NCBI GenBank assembly: GCA_017428115.1 | Contig: JAFRRK010000085.1 | Location: forward strand, 1 to 35,941 | DNA from: Bacteroidales bacterium | Lineage (GTDB): Bacteria; Bacteroidota; Bacteroidia; Bacteroidales; P3 | Direction: 5' to 3' | DNA: 35,941 bases | Shown: piece by piece, positions 5,525 through 35,803 of the stretch | Position numbering within the stretch: the first letter of the stretch is position 1 | Layout: each line of letters opens with the position of its first letter | Translations under genes and position numbers: made by a program | Notes under the pieces: model-generated | Database searches by the model: none | Told to the model about the DNA's origin: nothing | The model's input: the letters and a program-made list of their open reading frames with translations, nothing else

Positions 5525-5959
5525 CTACCTGCCGAGAAGAGACTCGGCAGCAAAGCGGTAGCCTTCCAAGCCGAGACCGCATATCACCCCCTTGCACACA
5601 TCGCTGAGGAGGGAATGGCGGCGGTATTCCTCGCGGGCAAAGATATTGCTGATGTGCACCTCGATGACGGGCGAGGTGATGGCGGCGATGGCATCGTGGA
5701 TGGCCACGCTGGTGTGGCTGTAGCCACCCGCATTAAGCACTATGCCGTCGGCCGAGAAACCCACCTCGTGCAGACGGTTGATAATCTCACCCTCCACATT
5801 GCTTTGGTAATAGCCTATTTCCGCCTGCGGGAAACGCTCGCGGAGGCCGGCCACCATCTGTTCCATGGTGACGGTGCCGTAAATCTCAGGCTGGCGCTGC
5901 CCTGTCAAGTTCAAATTCGGCCCGTTTATTATTTCTATTCTTTTATTCATATTCCTCAA
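5525..5959 (-). CDS. aroQ: type II 3-dehydroquinate dehydratase
   Basis: A 144-residue protein, the usual size for the dodecameric type II enzyme. It removes water from 3-dehydroquinate to give 3-dehydroshikimate, the third step of the shikimate pathway, in the cytoplasm. Family blocks in order: NGPNLNL (residues 12-18), the lid with Arg22 and the catalytic Tyr27 (QPEIYG), QSNVEGE (52-58), Asn76 and His82 in LNAGGYSHTS, the catalytic His102 in VIEVHISN, and Arg109/Arg113 in FAREEYRRHS. All known active-site residues are present. LTGQRQ replaces the more common LLGxRE before IYG, a mild change. A second ATG three codons in (5950) is an alternative start. A small membrane-protein gene lies 47 nt upstream on the same strand. 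Confidence 0.93.
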   Translation of the reverse strand: MRNMNKRIEIINGPNLNLTGQRQPEIYGTVTMEQMVAGLRERFPQAEIGYYQSNVEGEIINRLHEVGFSADGIVLNAGGYSHTSVAIHDAIAAITSPVIEVHISNIFAREEYRRHSLLSDVCKGVICGLGLEGYRFAAESLLGR

Positions 5960-28466: not shown

Positions 28467-29204
28467 ATGAAGAAGGCCTTTTCAATTGCACTACTGACAG
28501 TTATCCTAGCCGCCTCCGCCACGGCCCAAGAGAGCAACAGCCATTTCACCTTCAACACCCGCGCCTGGACCACCAACTACTGGACCGACATCTTATTCAA
28601 CATTGCACAAGGCGCCGTTGTCCACTGGGCGTGCGACGACGACCCCATTGCCGACGCCATCATCCCCGACGCCGACCTCGTCTTCCCTGTCGGCATCGCC
28701 CGTGAGGGCTTAGTAGGCCCCTACGACATTTACGGCCCCTACCACCGAGCCTTCAGCAACCCCTTCAAGCAGCTTGGCGACTATGCCATAGGCCTCGACG
28801 CCTCATGGAAACACACCGGCATCGGACTCTATGCCGGCGTCTACTACAAAAGTCAGGAACTCTGCTTCATACAGGACAACCAGACCCTCCGCGGCAACTA
28901 CTTCCAGCCGCGTGCAGGCCTCATCCTGGGCAAAGGACGCAAAGCACTCGAGGTAGGTCTCTTCTACGATCAGGTGGTAAGCTGTGGCGGCACCTGGAAC
29001 AACCCCAACAAAGAGATGCTGCAAAACGGTTTCGGCCTCGACTTCGCCCTCTCACTCACCAATCGCGACGGCAACCAGAAAAACCTCCTCACCTTCTCCC
29101 TGCCACTCCACAACTTCCTCAACGAAGCCTATGCCGGCGGCCTCCTACAAGGCATGAACCGCCGTGTAGGATACATCATGCTCACCCACCGCGTAGTGTT
29201 CTAA
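28467..29204 (+). CDS. secreted outer-membrane-type protein of unknown function
   Basis: A 245-residue protein with a signal peptide (MKKAFSIALLTVILAASATAQ). The mature part has strand-like segments that fit a barrel (YAIGLDASWKHTGIGLYAGVYYKSQEL, FQPRAGLILGKGRKALEVGLFYDQVVSCGG, NGFGLDFALSL, NLLTFSLPLHNFLNEAYAGG) and ends RVGYIMLTHRVVF with a terminal Phe, the mark of outer-membrane proteins. It has its own promoter (28430) and a terminator (29229-29260), so it is a single-gene unit just before the CRISPR locus. I do not recognise a family. Confidence 0.65.
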   Translation: MKKAFSIALLTVILAASATAQESNSHFTFNTRAWTTNYWTDILFNIAQGAVVHWACDDDPIADAIIPDADLVFPVGIAREGLVGPYDIYGPYHRAFSNPFKQLGDYAIGLDASWKHTGIGLYAGVYYKSQELCFIQDNQTLRGNYFQPRAGLILGKGRKALEVGLFYDQVVSCGGTWNNPNKEMLQNGFGLDFALSLTNRDGNQKNLLTFSLPLHNFLNEAYAGGLLQGMNRRVGYIMLTHRVVF

Positions 29205-29540: not shown

Positions 29541-29571
29541 TTTTAGAAATTGAAAAAAAAATGTAATTTTG
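29541..29571 (+). promoter_or_regulatory. probable cas9 promoter
   Basis: TTTT (29541-29544), 19 nt with an A9 tract, then TAATTTTG (29564-29571). The same A-tract/TGTAATTTTGCA block stands before the ncRNA at 683. Transcription would start near 29578, giving a cas9 leader of about 155 nt that runs across the tracrRNA gene in antisense. Confidence 0.6.
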
Positions 29572-29613
29572 CACTTCAAATAAAAAGAAAACAAAACTCT
29601 TTTTGAGCCATAC

Positions 29614-29695
29614 AGAAAAAAGTGAAACCCACGTAAATCGCAGGTTTCCAGAAATCTTCGGCTTATAGCCTTATTGTGAAAAGCTTAAAAAGATG
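29614..29695 (-). ncRNA. tracrRNA of the II-C CRISPR system
   Basis: Read on the minus strand, the RNA starts with an anti-repeat (29673-29692). It pairs with the first 20 nt of the CRISPR repeat (GTTGTGAATTGCTTAAAAAG) except for a U-U/U-U internal loop; the outermost pair is G-U. Next comes a short hairpin GGCTATAAGCC (29660-29670), in the place of the nexus, then AAGATTTCTG, then a 10-bp terminator stem GAAACCTGCG/CGTGGGTTTC (29624-29648, two G-U pairs) and six U. The size is about 80 nt. It guides crRNA maturation by RNase III and binds Cas9. It lies between cas9 and the flanking gene, divergent from cas9, and its 5' end is inferred from the -7 box at 29699. Confidence 0.85.
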
Positions 29696-29698
29696 TTG

Positions 29699-29706
29699 CA
29701 AAGATA
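29699..29706 (-). promoter_or_regulatory. -7 box of the tracrRNA promoter
   Basis: Minus-strand TATCTTTG, exact TAnnTTTG, a few nt before the anti-repeat. The -33 region, which falls around the cas9 start codon, is a poor match. Confidence 0.65.
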
Positions 29707-29732
29707 ATAATAATTATTGAAATAACTGCTCT

Positions 29733-30704
29733 ATGAGTCAAAAAATTTTAGGCATCGACCTTGGCACTAACTCTTTAGGCATTGCATTAAGAGACCCCGA
29801 CTTGGGAGGGAACATCTCTGAACAACTAGAATACTACACCTCTATCATCTTTCAAGCAGGGGTTGGAACAGGAAAAAGCGGAGAATTCTCTTTCGCTGCC
29901 GAAAGGAGGAAATATCGTTCTACCCGAAGACTATATCAGGCACGAAAATATAGAATCTGGGCTACCCTAGAGCTTCTCATTGAGCACAATTGCTGTCCTT
30001 TGACCATCGATGAGCTTGACCGCTGGCGCAAATATGATAAAACCAAAGGATTAAAACGGCAATATCCGACTGATGCTACAATATTTGAGCAATGGGTTCG
30101 GCTGGACTTTAACAATGATGGCATACCCGAATATTCAAGTCCTTATGCGCTTCGAGCCGAACTAATGGAAAGGCCTCTTGACTGGGGGAACCAAACCGAC
30201 CGTTACAAATTTGGCCGTGCAATGTACCATATTGCCCAACGAAGAGGTTTTAAAAGCAGCAAAGGGGAAACGCTTAAAGATGCTAAGGAAGGCGAGGACC
30301 TCTCTTCTATTGACATAAACACTGCCATGAAAAAATCGGAAGAGAAAAAATCCAGAGACCTTACTACATACATGCAAACACACAATCTTGAAACAGTAGG
30401 CTGTGCCTATGCCCTATTGGAAAAAGAAGGCATACGTATTAGAAACAGTGAATACCAAGCCGTACAGTCACAATACATTGATGAGGTGGATAAAATATGC
30501 AAGTATCAACATGTAGACATTATTGACCCTGAGCTACACCACAGGTTGATAAGCACTAAAAAGAATGAAGGTACTATTTTTTACCGCCGACCTCTTCGGT
30601 CCCAAAAGAGCCTAGTAGGCAAATGCACACTAGAACCAAGCAAACGCCGATGCCCTGTGAGCCATCCCGACTTTGAAGAATTTCGGGCTCTCTCATATCA
30701 ATAA
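29733..30704 (+). CDS. cas9: Cas9 N-terminal fragment (RuvC-I, bridge helix, first recognition part)
   Basis: This frame gives 323 residues. RuvC-I is ILGIDLGTNSLGIALRD, with the catalytic Asp9. The Arg-rich bridge helix spans about residues 57-74 (ERRKYRSTRRLYQARKYR). The helical recognition lobe begins after this with GRAMYHIAQRRGFKSSKG, a phrase conserved in II-C proteins. The family mark RRPLRSQKSLVGKCTLEPSKRRCPVSHP stands just before the break. The last two residues before the stop, Tyr-Gln, include one false residue. The ATG at 29733 follows an AT-rich leader without a Shine-Dalgarno site, as usual in this group. Confidence 0.85.
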   Translation: MSQKILGIDLGTNSLGIALRDPDLGGNISEQLEYYTSIIFQAGVGTGKSGEFSFAAERRKYRSTRRLYQARKYRIWATLELLIEHNCCPLTIDELDRWRKYDKTKGLKRQYPTDATIFEQWVRLDFNNDGIPEYSSPYALRAELMERPLDWGNQTDRYKFGRAMYHIAQRRGFKSSKGETLKDAKEGEDLSSIDINTAMKKSEEKKSRDLTTYMQTHNLETVGCAYALLEKEGIRIRNSEYQAVQSQYIDEVDKICKYQHVDIIDPELHHRLISTKKNEGTIFYRRPLRSQKSLVGKCTLEPSKRRCPVSHPDFEEFRALSYQ

Positions 30705-33700
30705 CATTAAATTCCGTTTTGAATCTAACAGCCCTTGGCAATCTCTATCCGAAAATGTACGTGCCGAACTATTTGAAGAATGCTTCACCCGCACCAAAAC
30801 CACATTTAAATTTGAAGATATTCGCAAATGGCTTGAAAAGAAATATCCTGGCCACAGTTTCGATTACAGCAACCGCACCATTAATTATCACGACCACACC
30901 ACCGTGGCTGGCTGTTCCATAATCAGCCGACTAAAGAAAATAATAGGTGACGACTGGCAAACACGTCTCATTGAATCCGATAAGACACGAACCAATTGTA
31001 ATACCGGGGAGATACATGCCATCAAATACAATTATGAAGACATTTGGCATCTAGCATACAACAGTGATGACTATGAAGGACTGTCTGAATTGGCAACAAA
31101 AAAAATGGCATTAACCCCGAAACAGGCAGGAGAACTGATAAAGCTATGGAGTGCAATACAAGATGGCTACACATCCCTGAGCTTAAAGGCAATCCGCAAT
31201 ATCCTTCCCTTTTTGCGCGAGGGTATGATTTACAGCAAAGCGGTAGCTTACGCCAAGATTCCTGACATTATTGGGAATGAACGTTGGAGCAACAAACAGA
31301 ATGAACTATTGAATGAACTGGAAAGCCTCACAGAAAAAAACGAATACGACCGTCGCATCATCGGCATCGCCAACACACTGATTGCTAACTATAAATCTAA
31401 ATCATTAAACGACCAGCAAGGCTATCGCAATACGAACTACAAACTTGACCAAAGCGATCGGAAAGAAATACACCGCTGCATACTTGACACGCTGAGCGAG
31501 AAGCGTTGGAATCAGCTGAGTGAAAATGAACAAAAGAAAATTCAAAAAGATGTAGAAGAATTGTACCAGAACTTTTTTGCCTCTTCTAAGGGTGATTATT
31601 ACGACCTACCTCGACAAAGCGACATTCTGAAGGAACATTTGGCAACAACATTCCCCGACATTCCTGAGAAACAATGGGAAAGGCTCTATCACCACTCACA
31701 GATTAGCATCTTTCCTCAGCAGAAGCCACAAATAATTGAAGCGAATGACAGAATCATGTCTGTGCCACAATTAGGCACCCCCGACATCGGTTCAATAAAA
31801 AATCCCGTTGCACTGCGAGCTCTCCACGTACTCAGGCGTACAATCAACCAGCTACTCTTGAACGGTATGATTGACAACGAAGACACTCGCATCGTCATCG
31901 AAACAGCTCGTGAACTGAACGATGCCAACTGGCGAAAGGCCATTGAACGTTACCAGAAAGAACGCAACAAGGAAAACGATGCCATCATCGAAATCATCAA
32001 GGAGTTTCGCCCAAACTATTCTCAAGAAGACATAGAAAAAGGACGTTTACTCTTCGAACAAATTGAGACCGGCAATAGCGATGACGAAAAGCTGAACACG
32101 ATCGCACACACTTCACGCAACGAGAAAGAAAAGGCAGCACGGTTTGCCATTGACATGCAAAAATATAAGCTTTGGAAGGAACAGAAATTCAGGTGTCTGT
32201 ATACAGGCAAACAAATCAGCCTTTCCGACCTATTTGATGATAACAAAGTTGATATCGAACACACCATCCCTCGAAGCTTATCCTTCGACAACTCATTGAA
32301 GAATCGAACTGTTTGCAATGCACACTACAACCGATTCACCAAACAAAACCGAATCCCCTCGGAACTATCCGAATACAACGACATAATAGACCGCATCAAA
32401 CCATGGGAAGAAAAGGTGGCTCATATAAAAAATCAGATAGAGCTTTGGAAAGGAAATGCAAAAATCGCACCAACCATTGAGCGCAAAAACGAATGCCTAC
32501 AACAGAGACACATGTGGGAGCTTGAACTTGACTATTGGAAAGCCAAAGTATCTACATTCAGGATTCAGAAAGATGAATTAGACCTTGGTTTTCGCAATAG
32601 TCAACTGGTCGACACTCGCATTATCACTAAATATGCTTTTCACTATCTTAAATCCGTTTTTTCTCGTGTAGACGTTCAAAAGGGCAACGTCACCTCCGAC
32701 TTCAGGAAAATCCTAGGCGTACAGAGCGTTGACGAAAAGAAAGATCGCGACAAACATTCACACCACGCCATCGATGCCACCATACTCACAATGATACCCA
32801 CCGCAGCCAAACGCGACAGGATGATTGAACTCTTCTATCATATTCAGGAAGCCTGCGATGAAGAGAAGGCAGCATATCAATTGAAACTAGATAATGAGAT
32901 AAAAAGCTGCAACATTGGGCCTATTGGCAACTTAGTGAGTACCATTGAACAGAACATACTAGTCAATCATATCACAAAAGACCAAACACTAAGCCCCGCC
33001 AAAAAAAGAAGACATGCTAAATCCAAAAACAAAGGAGAAAAGCAGATGTGGATGCAAGGCGACTCCATTCGTGGAAGCCTGCATCAAGACACCTTCTATG
33101 GTGCCATAGTCGACAACGACAATAACAAACGTATGGTTGTTCGCAAACCTTTGAAATTGCTAAAGGAAAACGACCTAGAATCCATTGTAGACACCGCGCT
33201 ACGTAATGCTATCGAAACTCAAGTGCATCAGTTCATGGCAGAGCAGAACATAACCTTTGCAAAGGCTATTGAACGACCCATTTATATGACCAACCGAAAG
33301 GGCGAACCCATCTGTCATACCAAGAACGGAAAACCGATATCACCCATCAGGCATGTCAGATGCTTCGCAAAAGCAGGAAGAGGCGAATTAAAATATGACA
33401 CCGTACTGAAAATCAAACAGCAAACATACCTTTCAAAAAAAGACTATAAAAATACATATTACGCTCAAAACGACGACAACTATCTTTGCTTACTATATGA
33501 AGGTATCGCCAAAGGGAAACACTCTAAAGAATTTAGGTTGATTAATTATTTTGACATTGCACAATTAGGCCTAACCAATACTGATGCCATGTTCAATGAA
33601 CCTGAATTTGCTTACTTTAAGGGTAACCCAAACATGCCTCTAAAGGCTATTATCAAGAAAGGTTTTCGAGTGCTATTATACGTTAATCATCCTGACGAAG

Positions 33701-33960
33701 TAAGAGAAATGGATAGCGATAAACTAAGTGAACGGCTATACATCGTAAACAAATTCAATCTAATATCATCTATTTATGTCTATTTACAACATCATCTAGA
33801 CTCACGAAAGGAAACAGACATCGATTCTTCTGAGAAGGGAACTGCTTTCTCATCTTCAAGGAGAATGGCTTATATAAAGTGTACACCTGCTAATTTTAAA
33901 GCATTAATCGAGCATATTGACTTTGAGATTGACCCACTTGGAAACATACATTTCTTATAA
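30697..33960 (+). CDS. cas9: Cas9 C-terminal part (recognition lobe, RuvC-II/III, HNH, PAM-interacting)
   Basis: Starts in the other frame at INNIKFR; an open frame reaches back to a TTG at 30673, which could allow weak independent translation. In restored numbering RuvC-II has Glu724 in RIVIETARELND. HNH has VDIEHTIPRSLSFDNSLKNRTVCNAHYN with the catalytic His844, and an upstream CLYTGKQIS. RuvC-III has HSHHAIDATILTM with His1011/His1012 and Asp1015. The last 350 residues form the wedge and PAM-interacting part, ending EIDPLGNIHFL. Base composition is AT-rich: the line at 31381 has 21 G+C in 60. All nuclease residues are present, so the lesion is only the frame break. Confidence 0.85.
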   Translation: MNNIKFRFESNSPWQSLSENVRAELFEECFTRTKTTFKFEDIRKWLEKKYPGHSFDYSNRTINYHDHTTVAGCSIISRLKKIIGDDWQTRLIESDKTRTNCNTGEIHAIKYNYEDIWHLAYNSDDYEGLSELATKKMALTPKQAGELIKLWSAIQDGYTSLSLKAIRNILPFLREGMIYSKAVAYAKIPDIIGNERWSNKQNELLNELESLTEKNEYDRRIIGIANTLIANYKSKSLNDQQGYRNTNYKLDQSDRKEIHRCILDTLSEKRWNQLSENEQKKIQKDVEELYQNFFASSKGDYYDLPRQSDILKEHLATTFPDIPEKQWERLYHHSQISIFPQQKPQIIEANDRIMSVPQLGTPDIGSIKNPVALRALHVLRRTINQLLLNGMIDNEDTRIVIETARELNDANWRKAIERYQKERNKENDAIIEIIKEFRPNYSQEDIEKGRLLFEQIETGNSDDEKLNTIAHTSRNEKEKAARFAIDMQKYKLWKEQKFRCLYTGKQISLSDLFDDNKVDIEHTIPRSLSFDNSLKNRTVCNAHYNRFTKQNRIPSELSEYNDIIDRIKPWEEKVAHIKNQIELWKGNAKIAPTIERKNECLQQRHMWELELDYWKAKVSTFRIQKDELDLGFRNSQLVDTRIITKYAFHYLKSVFSRVDVQKGNVTSDFRKILGVQSVDEKKDRDKHSHHAIDATILTMIPTAAKRDRMIELFYHIQEACDEEKAAYQLKLDNEIKSCNIGPIGNLVSTIEQNILVNHITKDQTLSPAKKRRHAKSKNKGEKQMWMQGDSIRGSLHQDTFYGAIVDNDNNKRMVVRKPLKLLKENDLESIVDTALRNAIETQVHQFMAEQNITFAKAIERPIYMTNRKGEPICHTKNGKPISPIRHVRCFAKAGRGELKYDTVLKIKQQTYLSKKDYKNTYYAQNDDNYLCLLYEGIAKGKHSKEFRLINYFDIAQLGLTNTDAMFNEPEFAYFKGNPNMPLKAIIKKGFRVLLYVNHPDEVREMDSDKLSERLYIVNKFNLISSIYVYLQHHLDSRKETDIDSSEKGTAFSSSRRMAYIKCTPANFKALIEHIDFEIDPLGNIHFL

Positions 33961-33968
33961 TTATAATT

Positions 33969-34877
33969 ATGATTAAGCGCACACTCTGTTTCTCCAACCC
34001 TGCCTACCTCTCCATGAAGAATAGGCAGCTGGTGGCTCAGCTGGAAAAGCAAGGCGACCAACCCCCACGGACAGCCACTGTCCCAATTGAGGATATCGGC
34101 ATCGTGGTGCTCGACTGCCAACAGATTACCATCACCCACGGGCTTATGGCTGCCCTTCTCGACAACAACGCCTCTGTTATCACCTGCGACGAGAAGCACA
34201 TGCCCGTGGGGCTTATGCTACCACTCGAAGGACACACCGTGCAAAGCGAACGCTTCCAAGACCAACTATCCTCCTCCCTGCCCTTACGCAAACAGCTATG
34301 GCAGCAAACGGTGCAGCAGAAAATACTCAATCAGGCCGCCCTGCTGCGCGAGCTCCACAACATCGAAACAGGCAACATGACCCAATGGGCTGCCGACGTG
34401 CATTCTGGCGACAGCACCAACCTGGAAGGCCGTGCAGCCGCATTCTATTGGAGCCACCTGCTCCCCGACATCGATAACTTTACACGCGACCGCGACGGCG
34501 ACTATCCCAACAGCCTCTTCAACTACTGCTACGCCATTCTCCGGGCCGTCATAGCCCGCGCCCTCGTCAGTAGCGGCCTCCTCCCCACCCTAGGCATTCA
34601 TCACCACAACCGCTACAACGCCTACTGCCTTGCCGACGACATCATGGAGCCCTACCGCCCCTATGCCGACCGCCTCGTCATCCGAACCATGCACAAATAC
34701 CCCGGCATCGAGGAACTGAACACCGACCTCAAACGCGCCCTCCTCACCATCCCCACCCTCGAAGTGCGCATCAACGGCCAGCGCAGCCCCCTCATGGTGG
34801 CTGCCAGCCAAACCACAGCCTCATTGGCACGCTGCTTTGCTGGCGAAAGTCGCAAACTCACCTACCCCGAAATGTGA
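33969..34877 (+). CDS. cas1: Cas1 integrase, type II
   Basis: A 302-residue protein. It joins new spacers to the array as a complex with Cas2. The metal-binding residues are in place: Glu153 in STNLEGRAAAFYW, the His cluster 211-213 in LGIHHHNRYNAY, and Glu227 with Asp223/224 in LADDIMEPYRPYADRLV. The opening MIKRTLCFSNPAYLSMKNRQLV and EDIGIVVLDCQQITITHGLMAALLDNNASVI are typical of type II Cas1. It starts 8 nt after cas9 and overlaps cas2 by one base, so the three form an operon. The gene is clearly GC-rich (40 of 60 bases in the line at 34381), unlike cas9. No csn2 or cas4 is present, which with the Cas9 type makes this II-C. Confidence 0.96.
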   Translation: MIKRTLCFSNPAYLSMKNRQLVAQLEKQGDQPPRTATVPIEDIGIVVLDCQQITITHGLMAALLDNNASVITCDEKHMPVGLMLPLEGHTVQSERFQDQLSSSLPLRKQLWQQTVQQKILNQAALLRELHNIETGNMTQWAADVHSGDSTNLEGRAAAFYWSHLLPDIDNFTRDRDGDYPNSLFNYCYAILRAVIARALVSSGLLPTLGIHHHNRYNAYCLADDIMEPYRPYADRLVIRTMHKYPGIEELNTDLKRALLTIPTLEVRINGQRSPLMVAASQTTASLARCFAGESRKLTYPEM

Positions 34878-35209
34878 TGGACCGTTTCTCCGAATACCGC
34901 ATCATGTGGCTGCTAGTATTCTTCGACCTACCCACCGACACCAAGAAAGAACGCAAGGCCGCTTCCGACTTTCGCAAAAACCTGCTAGCCGATGGGTTCA
35001 CCATGTTCCAATTCTCCATCTACGTACGCCACTGCGCCAGCCGCGAAAACGCCAACGTACACCTACACCGAGTACGTGCCATGCTGCCTCAATATGGGCA
35101 AGTAGGTTGTCTCACCATCACCGACAAACAATTTGCCGACATCGAACTATACATCTGCAAAAAGGAAGTACAACCCAACGCACCCGGACAACAATTAGAA
35201 CTATTCTGA
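34877..35209 (+). CDS. cas2: Cas2, type II
   Basis: A 110-residue protein from the ATG at 34877, which overlaps the cas1 stop (TGATG); a GTG one codon earlier is less likely. The ferredoxin-like fold opens YRIMWLLVFFDLPTDTKKERK, with the conserved Asp17. It goes on with ASDFRKNLLADGFTMFQFSIYVRHCASRENANVHLHRV and GQVGCLTITDKQFADIELYI, and ends LELF. Cas2 bridges two Cas1 dimers in the spacer-adding complex; nuclease activity is not needed for that. It is the last gene of the cas operon. A terminator follows 260 nt later, before the CRISPR array. Confidence 0.95.
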   Translation: MDRFSEYRIMWLLVFFDLPTDTKKERKAASDFRKNLLADGFTMFQFSIYVRHCASRENANVHLHRVRAMLPQYGQVGCLTITDKQFADIELYICKKEVQPNAPGQQLELF

Positions 35210-35468
35210 TATCATTTACTAAAGATTGACAAGCAAGATAAAGCCAAGAAACACCCCTAGCACAATATTCACTATTCATTTGGTATCTGCCTATTCGCTG
35301 TTTATTACCCGAATTATCATCGCAGAACAAGTGTCTGTCAAATAGCAAAACAATTGACATTCAATAAAGTAAAATAGCAAAAACAAAGAAGGTAGGATGT
35401 GGTTTTTGAAGACAACGAACTGTCAAACCATAGTCATATATAGAAATAGAAAAAACGCCCATAGAAAC
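35210..35468. other. intergenic stretch between cas2 and terminator
   Basis: This AT-rich stretch holds no protein frame of note. AAATAGCAAAA occurs twice (near 35340 and 35371). No second anti-repeat or repeat remnant was found, so it does not hold another tracrRNA. Confidence 0.5.
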
Positions 35469-35502
35469 AAAAAATCCCGCCCCTTAGAGCGGGATTTTTT
35501 TA
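35469..35502. terminator. bidirectional terminator between cas operon and CRISPR array
   Basis: ATCCCGC (35474-35480) pairs with GCGGGAT (35489-35495), with A on one side and T on the other (six and seven bases). It has a T-run in both directions and can end cas transcripts on the plus strand and array transcripts on the minus strand. Confidence 0.88.
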
Positions 35503-35552
35503 GTCTTTGACACATCTTGAAACACTGTGTCTCTTATCGTTACTAACATTGT

Positions 35553-35803
35553 GATGTCAAAGAGCTATTATCGTGTTTCCTTTTTAAGCAATTCACAACG
35601 GGTGGGTTCGTGCAACATTTTACCTTTTGATGTCAAAGAGCTATTATCGTGTTTCCTTTTTAAGCAATTCACAACTCAAGCTGATGACTCTTTAAAAAGT
35701 GCGGAGATGTCAAAGAGCTATTATCGTGTTTCCTTTTTAAGCAATTCACAACCAAAAGAAAAAACAACAAAAGACAAGTTACGATGTCAAAGAGCTATTA
35801 TCG
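35553..35803 (-). CRISPR. CRISPR array, II-C, three repeats plus truncated fourth
   Basis: Three identical 47-bp repeats (35553-35599, 35629-35675, 35706-35752) and three spacers of 29, 30 and 30 nt (35600-35628, 35676-35705, 35753-35782). A fourth repeat matches only for 21 bp (35783-35803). Read on the minus strand, the repeat begins GTTGTGAATTGCTTAAAAAG, the orientation that pairs with the tracrRNA, so the array is transcribed from right to left toward the terminator at 35469. The repeat length and start are usual for Bacteroidetes II-C systems. The broken repeat is at the promoter-proximal end. A box-like TAGCTCTTTG lies near the repeat 3' end on the transcribed strand; repeat-internal promoters are known from other II-C arrays. 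Confidence 0.95.

Follow-up and report, generated by a model that had tools for sequence, protein, structure and literature searches.

Introduction

Can the trans-activating CRISPR RNA (tracrRNA; CRISPR, clustered regularly interspaced short palindromic repeats) of a type II-C system serve at the same time as an antisense RNA of the cas9 message? The question is raised by a contig of a Bacteroidales bacterium (JAFRRK010000085.1, assembly GCA_017428115.1), whose whole length of 35,941 nucleotides (nt) is referred to here as the window, and which carries a type II-C CRISPR locus made up of cas9, cas1, cas2 and then a short array. A tracrRNA gene lies on the minus strand directly upstream of cas9, and the promoter sequence recognised for cas9 stands on its far side. 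Control of the amount of Cas9 appears to have been worked out mainly for type II-A systems. The analysis presented here suggests that this otherwise ordinary type II-C tracrRNA would also act in cis as an antisense RNA to the leader of cas9, with mutual damping of the two RNAs as the consequence, a reading to which we assign a probability of roughly one half.

The tracrRNA and the predicted cas9 leader

Judged by its sequence, the minus-strand RNA upstream of cas9 is a real type II-C tracrRNA: it can pair with the repeat of its own locus, and it has a nexus hairpin and an intrinsic terminator (Table 1). The anti-repeat and the array's own repeat form 18 base pairs (bp), 8 + 10 around a 2x2 internal loop, at -22.2 kcal/mol, which implies that the strand of the CRISPR RNAs (crRNAs) of the array is the minus strand too. 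The terminator stem, GAAACC/GGTTTC, leads into a run of six T, read as A at 29616-29621 of the plus strand. In an alignment of 75 of the 78 non-duplicate loci described below (excluded were L089, L104 and, because it nearly duplicates L086, L113), both sides of the stem are changed in 110 cells, compared with 28.4 +/- 4.0 in shuffles, and 93% of all cells are paired, a share that falls to 34-46% when the partners are slid by 1-3 columns. A first-pass annotation of the window had placed a minus-strand tracrRNA, with anti-repeat, nexus-like hairpin and six-U terminator, between a plus-strand promoter-like block and the cas9 start; these elements are read directly from the sequence, and the comparison with relatives of the same layout, in which the terminator covaries and the nexus pairs are identical, bears it out.

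Promoters were scored with a matrix derived from 59 of the tracrRNA promoters in these loci, that of the window among them, at a threshold passed once per 1000 positions of shuffled sequence; silence at a locus is not evidence of absence. Because the matrix was trained on the same sites, minus-strand counts involve some circularity, whereas the reading of the plus strand is independent. The tracrRNA promoter of the window scores 12.5, a value matched by 248 of 3000 shuffles, and it is supported by its position, since 69 of 78 loci have an over-threshold site where one is expected, a count subject to this circularity.

The plus-strand block of the first-pass annotation fits a promoter sequence of the Bacteroidota type, with TTTT around 29541-29544 and TAATTTTGC at 29564-29572, beyond the tracrRNA terminator. 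Its score of 15.9 is reached by 2 of 3000 shuffled stretches of 326 nt, and between 29520 and 29725 no other plus-strand site with a score of at least 3 was found. Six similar stretches elsewhere in the same genome were checked, of which two precede an open reading frame (ORF), by 27 nt and 124 nt, and two others fall within an ORF; such copies lend weak support to the cas9 promoter. The start sites of both RNAs were predicted from the spacing of the -7 box (-12 to -5), as given in a passage on Flavobacterium psychrophilum. The predicted leader of the cas9 messenger RNA (mRNA) would consist of about 40 nt, then a full antisense copy of the ~79-nt tracrRNA, then 38 nt, and the two predicted starts lie ~118 bp apart, head-on. 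Promoter positions support an overlap of the two transcripts between these predicted starts. The leader had earlier been put at about 155 nt and held to be fully complementary to the tracrRNA; its predicted length is ~157 nt, and the complementarity has to be turned around, as it is the tracrRNA that would pair over its whole length, with the middle half of the leader.

The predicted leader was also observed to hold a degenerate repeat copy after the tracrRNA terminator (29597-29615 in the window, and at the same place in L011), with 3 of 200 shuffles as high in the window and 0 of 200 in L011. At a limit of at most 2 of 200 shuffles, such a copy is found in 2 of 78 loci (L011 and L084). Folding of the window's leader RNA predicts that this copy pairs with the repeat-like segment, which it might thereby hide from the tracrRNA.

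Conservation of the antisense arrangement

Relatives were collected by aligning the Cas9 proteins of ten loci and scanning genome contigs with the alignment, and the best 80 of the 238 stretches encoding a relative were kept. L090 (no N-terminus), L043 (no start placed) and L018, L044 and L045 (partial or masked) were dropped before counting. The 92 loci with a placed cas9 start comprise 79 of the best 80, 12 from genomes of the genus or family, and the window; with a tracrRNA core motif that was defined after inspecting the loci, the core is found antisense and directly upstream of cas9 in 91 of them, the window included. The sole miss, L087, is at a contig end with just 66 nt before cas9. 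Removal of 13 duplicates left 78 loci, which extend down to 32% Cas9 identity; L089 and L104, whose cas9 start was misplaced by the script, are counted among the 91 and the 78 and are excluded from the alignment and the tree. Most loci are labelled Bacteroidota (Bacteroidales, Flavobacteriales, Cytophagales, Chitinophagales), the others being L085 (Bacillales), L120 (Melioribacter) and L112 (unclassified bacterium), and in the viral contigs scanned no relative was found. Loci with named records include Prevotella denticola (L128), Hoylesella nanceiensis (L079), Bacteroides caecigallinarum (L113) and Algoriphagus (L102). A tracrRNA and its place upstream of cas9 are known type II-C biology. The antisense gene order, by these sequence counts, is conserved and old in this Cas9 clade.

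Position of the cas9 promoter

The overlap depends on where cas9 is transcribed from. Among the loci of the clade, 43 plus-strand sites lie 41-140 nt before the tracrRNA core, compared with 7.8 expected, and from -40 to +19 of the core none is over the threshold. Counted by locus, 34 of 76 have a recognised plus-strand promoter ahead of the tracrRNA (8.3 +/- 2.6 in 100 shuffles, with a maximum of 16), while between the tracrRNA start and the ATG a plus-strand site is recognised in 6 of 73 (2.5 +/- 1.5 in shuffles). The distance from the predicted tracrRNA start to the ATG has a median of 50 nt and is at most 60 nt in 51 of 59 cases, which leaves little room for another promoter. When the 76 rows of the clade that enter the Cas9 tree are sorted by site, 29 have the upstream site only, 6 both, 9 only a site in the anti-repeat or nearer the ATG, and 32 none.

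An alternative is that cas9 starts downstream of the tracrRNA, in which case the two RNAs would not overlap at all. Such a start is likely by sequence for L069, L076 and L098, in which a promoter stands 115-118 nt after the core start with a long stretch before the ATG, as well as for the sister clade described below; and a very strong plus-strand candidate (19.5) is located inside the anti-repeat of L086 and L113. In the window, however, no such site appears down to a score of 3, and the nearest subclade, ten rows including the window, has no plus-strand site over the threshold between tracrRNA and ATG, with 8 of the ten having the promoter upstream of the tracrRNA; a bare TAnnTTTG does occur there in L011. 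A cas9 start downstream of 29700, which the first-pass annotation had singled out as the finding that would separate the two RNAs, is for this reason without sequence support in the window, and we regard the downstream start as improbable here. In the 15 rows whose site follows the core, it falls within the anti-repeat, at +38 to +43, in 9 and farther downstream in 6.

A strong promoter sequence resembling that of the repeats was observed on the plus strand of the anti-repeat in L086, L113, L040 and L062, and could fire towards cas9 across the tracrRNA promoter. L079 likewise has a candidate promoter within its anti-repeat.

A second set, of 20 loci with another Cas9 from the genus or family of the window, was used for comparison; L141 was dropped, as its start could not be placed, and 19 were usable. 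The tree, built from 76 of the 78 rows of the window's clade and these 19 sister rows, separates the sister loci from the window's clade with full support (FastTree). Their tracrRNA has another nexus, GGATTATTCC, and its place varies: of the 19 loci, 9 have it antisense upstream of cas9, 2 upstream in sense and 2 some 7 kb downstream, and in the other 6 the fetched stretch showed none. Where the cas9 promoter lies between tracrRNA and ATG, as in 8 of the 9 antisense-upstream sister loci, its -7 box is ~30 nt from the ATG, and a promoter within 75 nt of the ATG is present in 13 of 19 sister loci, compared with 15 of 78 in the window's clade. Since antisense placement occurs in both clades and the promoter sites differ, overlap of the messages appears to characterise the window's clade, in which it varies. 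The two clades, which occur in the same genus and in some genomes stand beside the same neighbour gene, provide a natural setting in which cas9 messages with the overlap can be compared with those without it.

Possible origin of the overlap

How an overlap can arise is suggested by L056, whose Cas9 is the closest relative of that in the window (68% identity). Its upstream region is 97.8% identical over 313 nt to that of the sister locus L147, and the shared stretch takes in the promoter, a short leader and, from the sister cas9, its ATG with a few bases, after which L056's own tracrRNA follows. Exchange of cassettes at a shared site, with the old cas9 promoter kept, is from these sequences the likely origin of the overlap in L056. 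L104 has, around 5840-5925 and directly before its tracrRNA terminator, the opening 21 codons of a cas9, ended by a stop codon, which suggests a second, independent exchange scar; a Cas9 start motif before the tracrRNA occurs in L104 alone among the 78 loci, the scar of L056 being too short for the motif. L010 matches the sister locus L144 (79% over 392 nt) and, over 64 nt of promoter, L138 (84%), and L016 matches L138 (85% over 65 nt). Capture of a sister promoter is well supported for L056 and suggested for L010 and L016.

The upstream neighbour gene of the window also stands beside the sister loci L138, L144, L145 and L146 (69-70% over 680-761 nt), a common neighbour that implies the use of one chromosomal site by both kinds of cassette. 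The promoter region of the window itself has no match in the sister clade, and among 119 genomes of the genus it has, besides itself, one match (G079, 86% over 47 nt). Cassette exchange as the origin of the window's own overlap is a guess.

These scars bring in a further explanation, in which the arrangement is compact packing and carries no regulation: Cas9 would protect the tracrRNA at once, so that the leader duplex would rarely form, and because the cassette begins with the tracrRNA terminator, cas9 would simply be read from outside through the tracrRNA gene. In L056 and L104 the overlap indeed looks like a by-product of exchange. The leader before the tracrRNA is, by eye, unconserved among relatives, and the upstream-promoter label is just modestly clustered on the Cas9 tree (20 changes, with an average of 25.0 in shuffles and 7 of 500 as low). 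On the other hand, antisense placement is kept in 91 of 92 loci down to 32% identity, even though the tracrRNA genes of the sister clade move. Packing without regulation is a possible explanation that we hold tentatively.

Two observations on these loci may be added. The scar of L056 (200-445, directly before the tracrRNA) has left a six-codon reading frame in the leader. In L042, L105, L123, L071 and L088, near-copies of the sister tracrRNA region stand upstream of the locus's own tracrRNA; they measure 24 nt and more, many being 92-100% identical, and are either remnants or a tandem second tracrRNA.

Possible regulation of Cas9

If the tracrRNA is also an antisense RNA of the cas9 leader, the following course would be expected. 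Transcription of cas9 would start from the promoter at 29541-29572, head-on against the tracrRNA promoter, and RNA polymerase on its way to cas9 would pass over the tracrRNA gene and its promoter. A free tracrRNA meeting the leader would form a duplex of ~79 bp, a substrate of RNase III, and cleavage of this duplex would strip the cas9 mRNA of its 5' end and use up tracrRNA. The predicted pairing of leader and tracrRNA reaches a net -105 kcal/mol, compared with -17 for repeat and tracrRNA; for the anti-repeat alone the values are -27.4 with the leader, which pairs without the 2x2 loop, and -22.2 with the repeat. An RNase III gene is present in the genome, and together with the very strong predicted duplex it makes mutual damping possible. 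The sequences show the two genes and their orientation, the promoters as motifs, and the conservation; from these we infer the existence of both RNAs, their start sites, the duplex, its cutting and any effect on Cas9 amounts, and regulation of this kind is plausible.

Several points weigh against it. In 32 of the 76 clade rows no promoter is recognised at either place, and in 15 of 76 a candidate lies inside the anti-repeat or nearer the ATG; these 15, together with the 8 of 9 sister loci with an antisense-upstream tracrRNA in which the cas9 promoter lies between tracrRNA and ATG, indicate that the two messages need not overlap and speak against an obligate role. Any antisense overlap brings full complementarity with it, and perfect pairing is no sign of selection for regulation. 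In the window the reading frame of cas9 is broken, so that the circuit may be dead there. Perhaps to be counted here as well is strain CN46 of F. psychrophilum, in which tracrRNA and cas9 are kept apart by the element IS982 and cas9 is nevertheless transcribed and active in interference (PMC10309648); it bears on the matter only if the layout is the same, the strand of the tracrRNA being absent from the passages drawn on.

A broader version of the antisense reading would give the tracrRNA a second job throughout a widespread clade, as a cis-antisense regulator of cas9: the leader would mimic a crRNA and, by its perfect pairing with the anti-repeat, serve as a decoy, surplus tracrRNA would cut the cas9 mRNA, and the sister clade and some members would have escaped by a promoter placed after the tracrRNA. 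If true, capture of cas9 mRNA by tracrRNA that is free of crRNA and Cas9 would set the amount of Cas9 against the supply of guide RNA. This version is doubtful, and we consider it unlikely.

Repression by the tracrRNA could take another form. In Streptococcus pyogenes, the tracrRNA stands opposite cas9. A longer tracrRNA, tracr-L, represses the cas promoter in that species, according to the passages used (PMC11417352), and a long tracrRNA might similarly serve here as its own guide and direct Cas9 to the cas9 promoter. Such an RNA would carry repeat-like sequence 5' of the anti-repeat, and none was found in any of the 78 loci at a limit of 2 of 200 shuffles, the window standing at 115 of 200; this route is highly improbable. 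The same count leaves a natural single guide of the tracr-L type unsupported, as its repeat-like and guide parts would be expected 5' of the anti-repeat. The three spacers of the array have no good match in positions 1-35500 of the window (best local score 27 of a possible 58-60), which lends no support to self-control by spacers.

Comparison with known systems

RNase III processing has reportedly been studied for CJnc190 and CJnc180 of Campylobacter jejuni. Neither of these RNAs is a tracrRNA, and what was shown there by experiment is predicted here. The likeness is that two RNAs are encoded mutually antisense (PMC3656092, in part), and RNase III processing, as reported in PMC8687705, resembles the predicted fate of the duplex of leader and tracrRNA. 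The noncanonical crRNAs of C. jejuni form another partial parallel: a segment of this kind lies in the cas9 leader here and is perfectly complementary, but those of C. jejuni come from mRNAs elsewhere in the genome, as far as the passages go, whereas the pairing here is cis-encoded and extends over the whole tracrRNA. With the autorepression by tracr-L in the type II-A system of S. pyogenes the present locus shares a tracrRNA tied to the control of cas9 (PMC11417352, in part); there a long tracrRNA guides on promoter DNA, while here the link would be antisense RNA or collision of transcription.

Among Bacteroidota, the type II-C locus of Riemerella, in the passages seen, has cas9, cas1, cas2, an array with 47-nt repeats and a 16-nt anti-repeat upstream of cas9 (PMC5006608), and in F. 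psychrophilum CN46 the tracrRNA is next to cas9, which has a TAnnTTTG promoter (PMC10309648). The gene set, the 47-nt repeats and an anti-repeat upstream of cas9 are, to the extent of these passages, common to Riemerella and the window, and a tracrRNA next to cas9 and a cas9 promoter of this type to CN46 and the window. CN46 differs in that IS982, which separates tracrRNA and cas9, also carries the cas9 promoter (PMC10309648). Unlike the arrangement reported here, a cas9 leader antisense to the tracrRNA is not described in the passages of PMC5006608 and PMC10309648, and the literature searched, with partial coverage, gave no recognised description of one. Within that literature, a cas9 leader antisense to the tracrRNA is an undescribed variant within known type II-C biology.

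Organization of the locus

The source genome, of Bacteroidota type judged by the relatives of the locus, is 80% complete in 103 contigs. The tracrRNA and promoter region sits between a gene at 28467-29204 and cas9, and the gene content of the locus (cas9, cas1 and cas2 only) is that of type II-C. The window's features are collected in Table 1.

Table 1. Features of the type II-C locus and their coordinates in the window.
Feature	Position	Strand	Remarks
Predicted cas9 promoter (-33 TTTT, -7 TAATTTTGC)	29541..29572	+	predicted start 29576
Predicted cas9 mRNA leader, 157 nt	29576..29732	+	inferred from position of the -7 box
tracrRNA, ~79 nt	29616..29694	-	predicted start 29694; end at U run near 29616
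Intrinsic terminator, six U	29616..29648	-	10-bp stem; 7 pairs changed on both sides
Nexus hairpin GGCTATAAGCC	29660..29670	-	four pairs identical in 75/75 aligned loci
Anti-repeat of tracrRNA	29673..29694	-	plus strand repeat-like here
-7 box of tracrRNA promoter, TATCTTTG on minus strand	29699..29706	-	by position
cas9, first part	29733..30704	+	ATG 29733; frame ends early; TIGR01865, E 1e-40
cas9, second part, other frame	30673..33960	+	TIGR01865, E 3.4e-79
cas1	33969..34877	+	TIGR03639 (type II Cas1), E 2.3e-90
cas2	34874..35209	+	TIGR01573, E 2.7e-20
CRISPR array	35553..35803	-	three complete 47-nt repeats, fourth cut to 21 nt; three spacers

The frame of cas9 changes at 30673-30704, where two overlapping ORFs match two parts of TIGR01865. 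A functional type II-C Cas9 is expected in one frame, and in the eight closest relatives of the genus (52-65% identity) cas9 is a single open frame of 1387-1436 codons. The break is either real decay or an error of sequencing or assembly, and the locus may be decaying. In the gap between cas2 and the array, just one ORF of at least 80 amino acids was found, an 80-residue minus-strand frame overlapping cas2, no model search for csn2 or cas4 having been made. Rfam gave no match in the window at the gathering score. An inverted repeat at 35460-35509, in the same gap, is bounded on its outer sides by T or A runs and could end transcripts.

The CRISPR array

An exact TAnnTTTG box at position 22-27 of the repeat, together with a 5'-terminal TTG (crRNA orientation), was observed in 15 of 45 loci with a readable repeat, among them L068, L071, L086 and L128; the repeat of the window is without the exact box. 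With such a box, each repeat could start its own crRNA, and repeat-encoded promoters, named by their TTG element, are reported for Flavobacterium in the passages of PMC10309648. The last repeat of the window (35783-35803) retains just the 21 nt of its 3' end (crRNA orientation), and this 21-nt remnant is the part in which some relatives have the promoter box.
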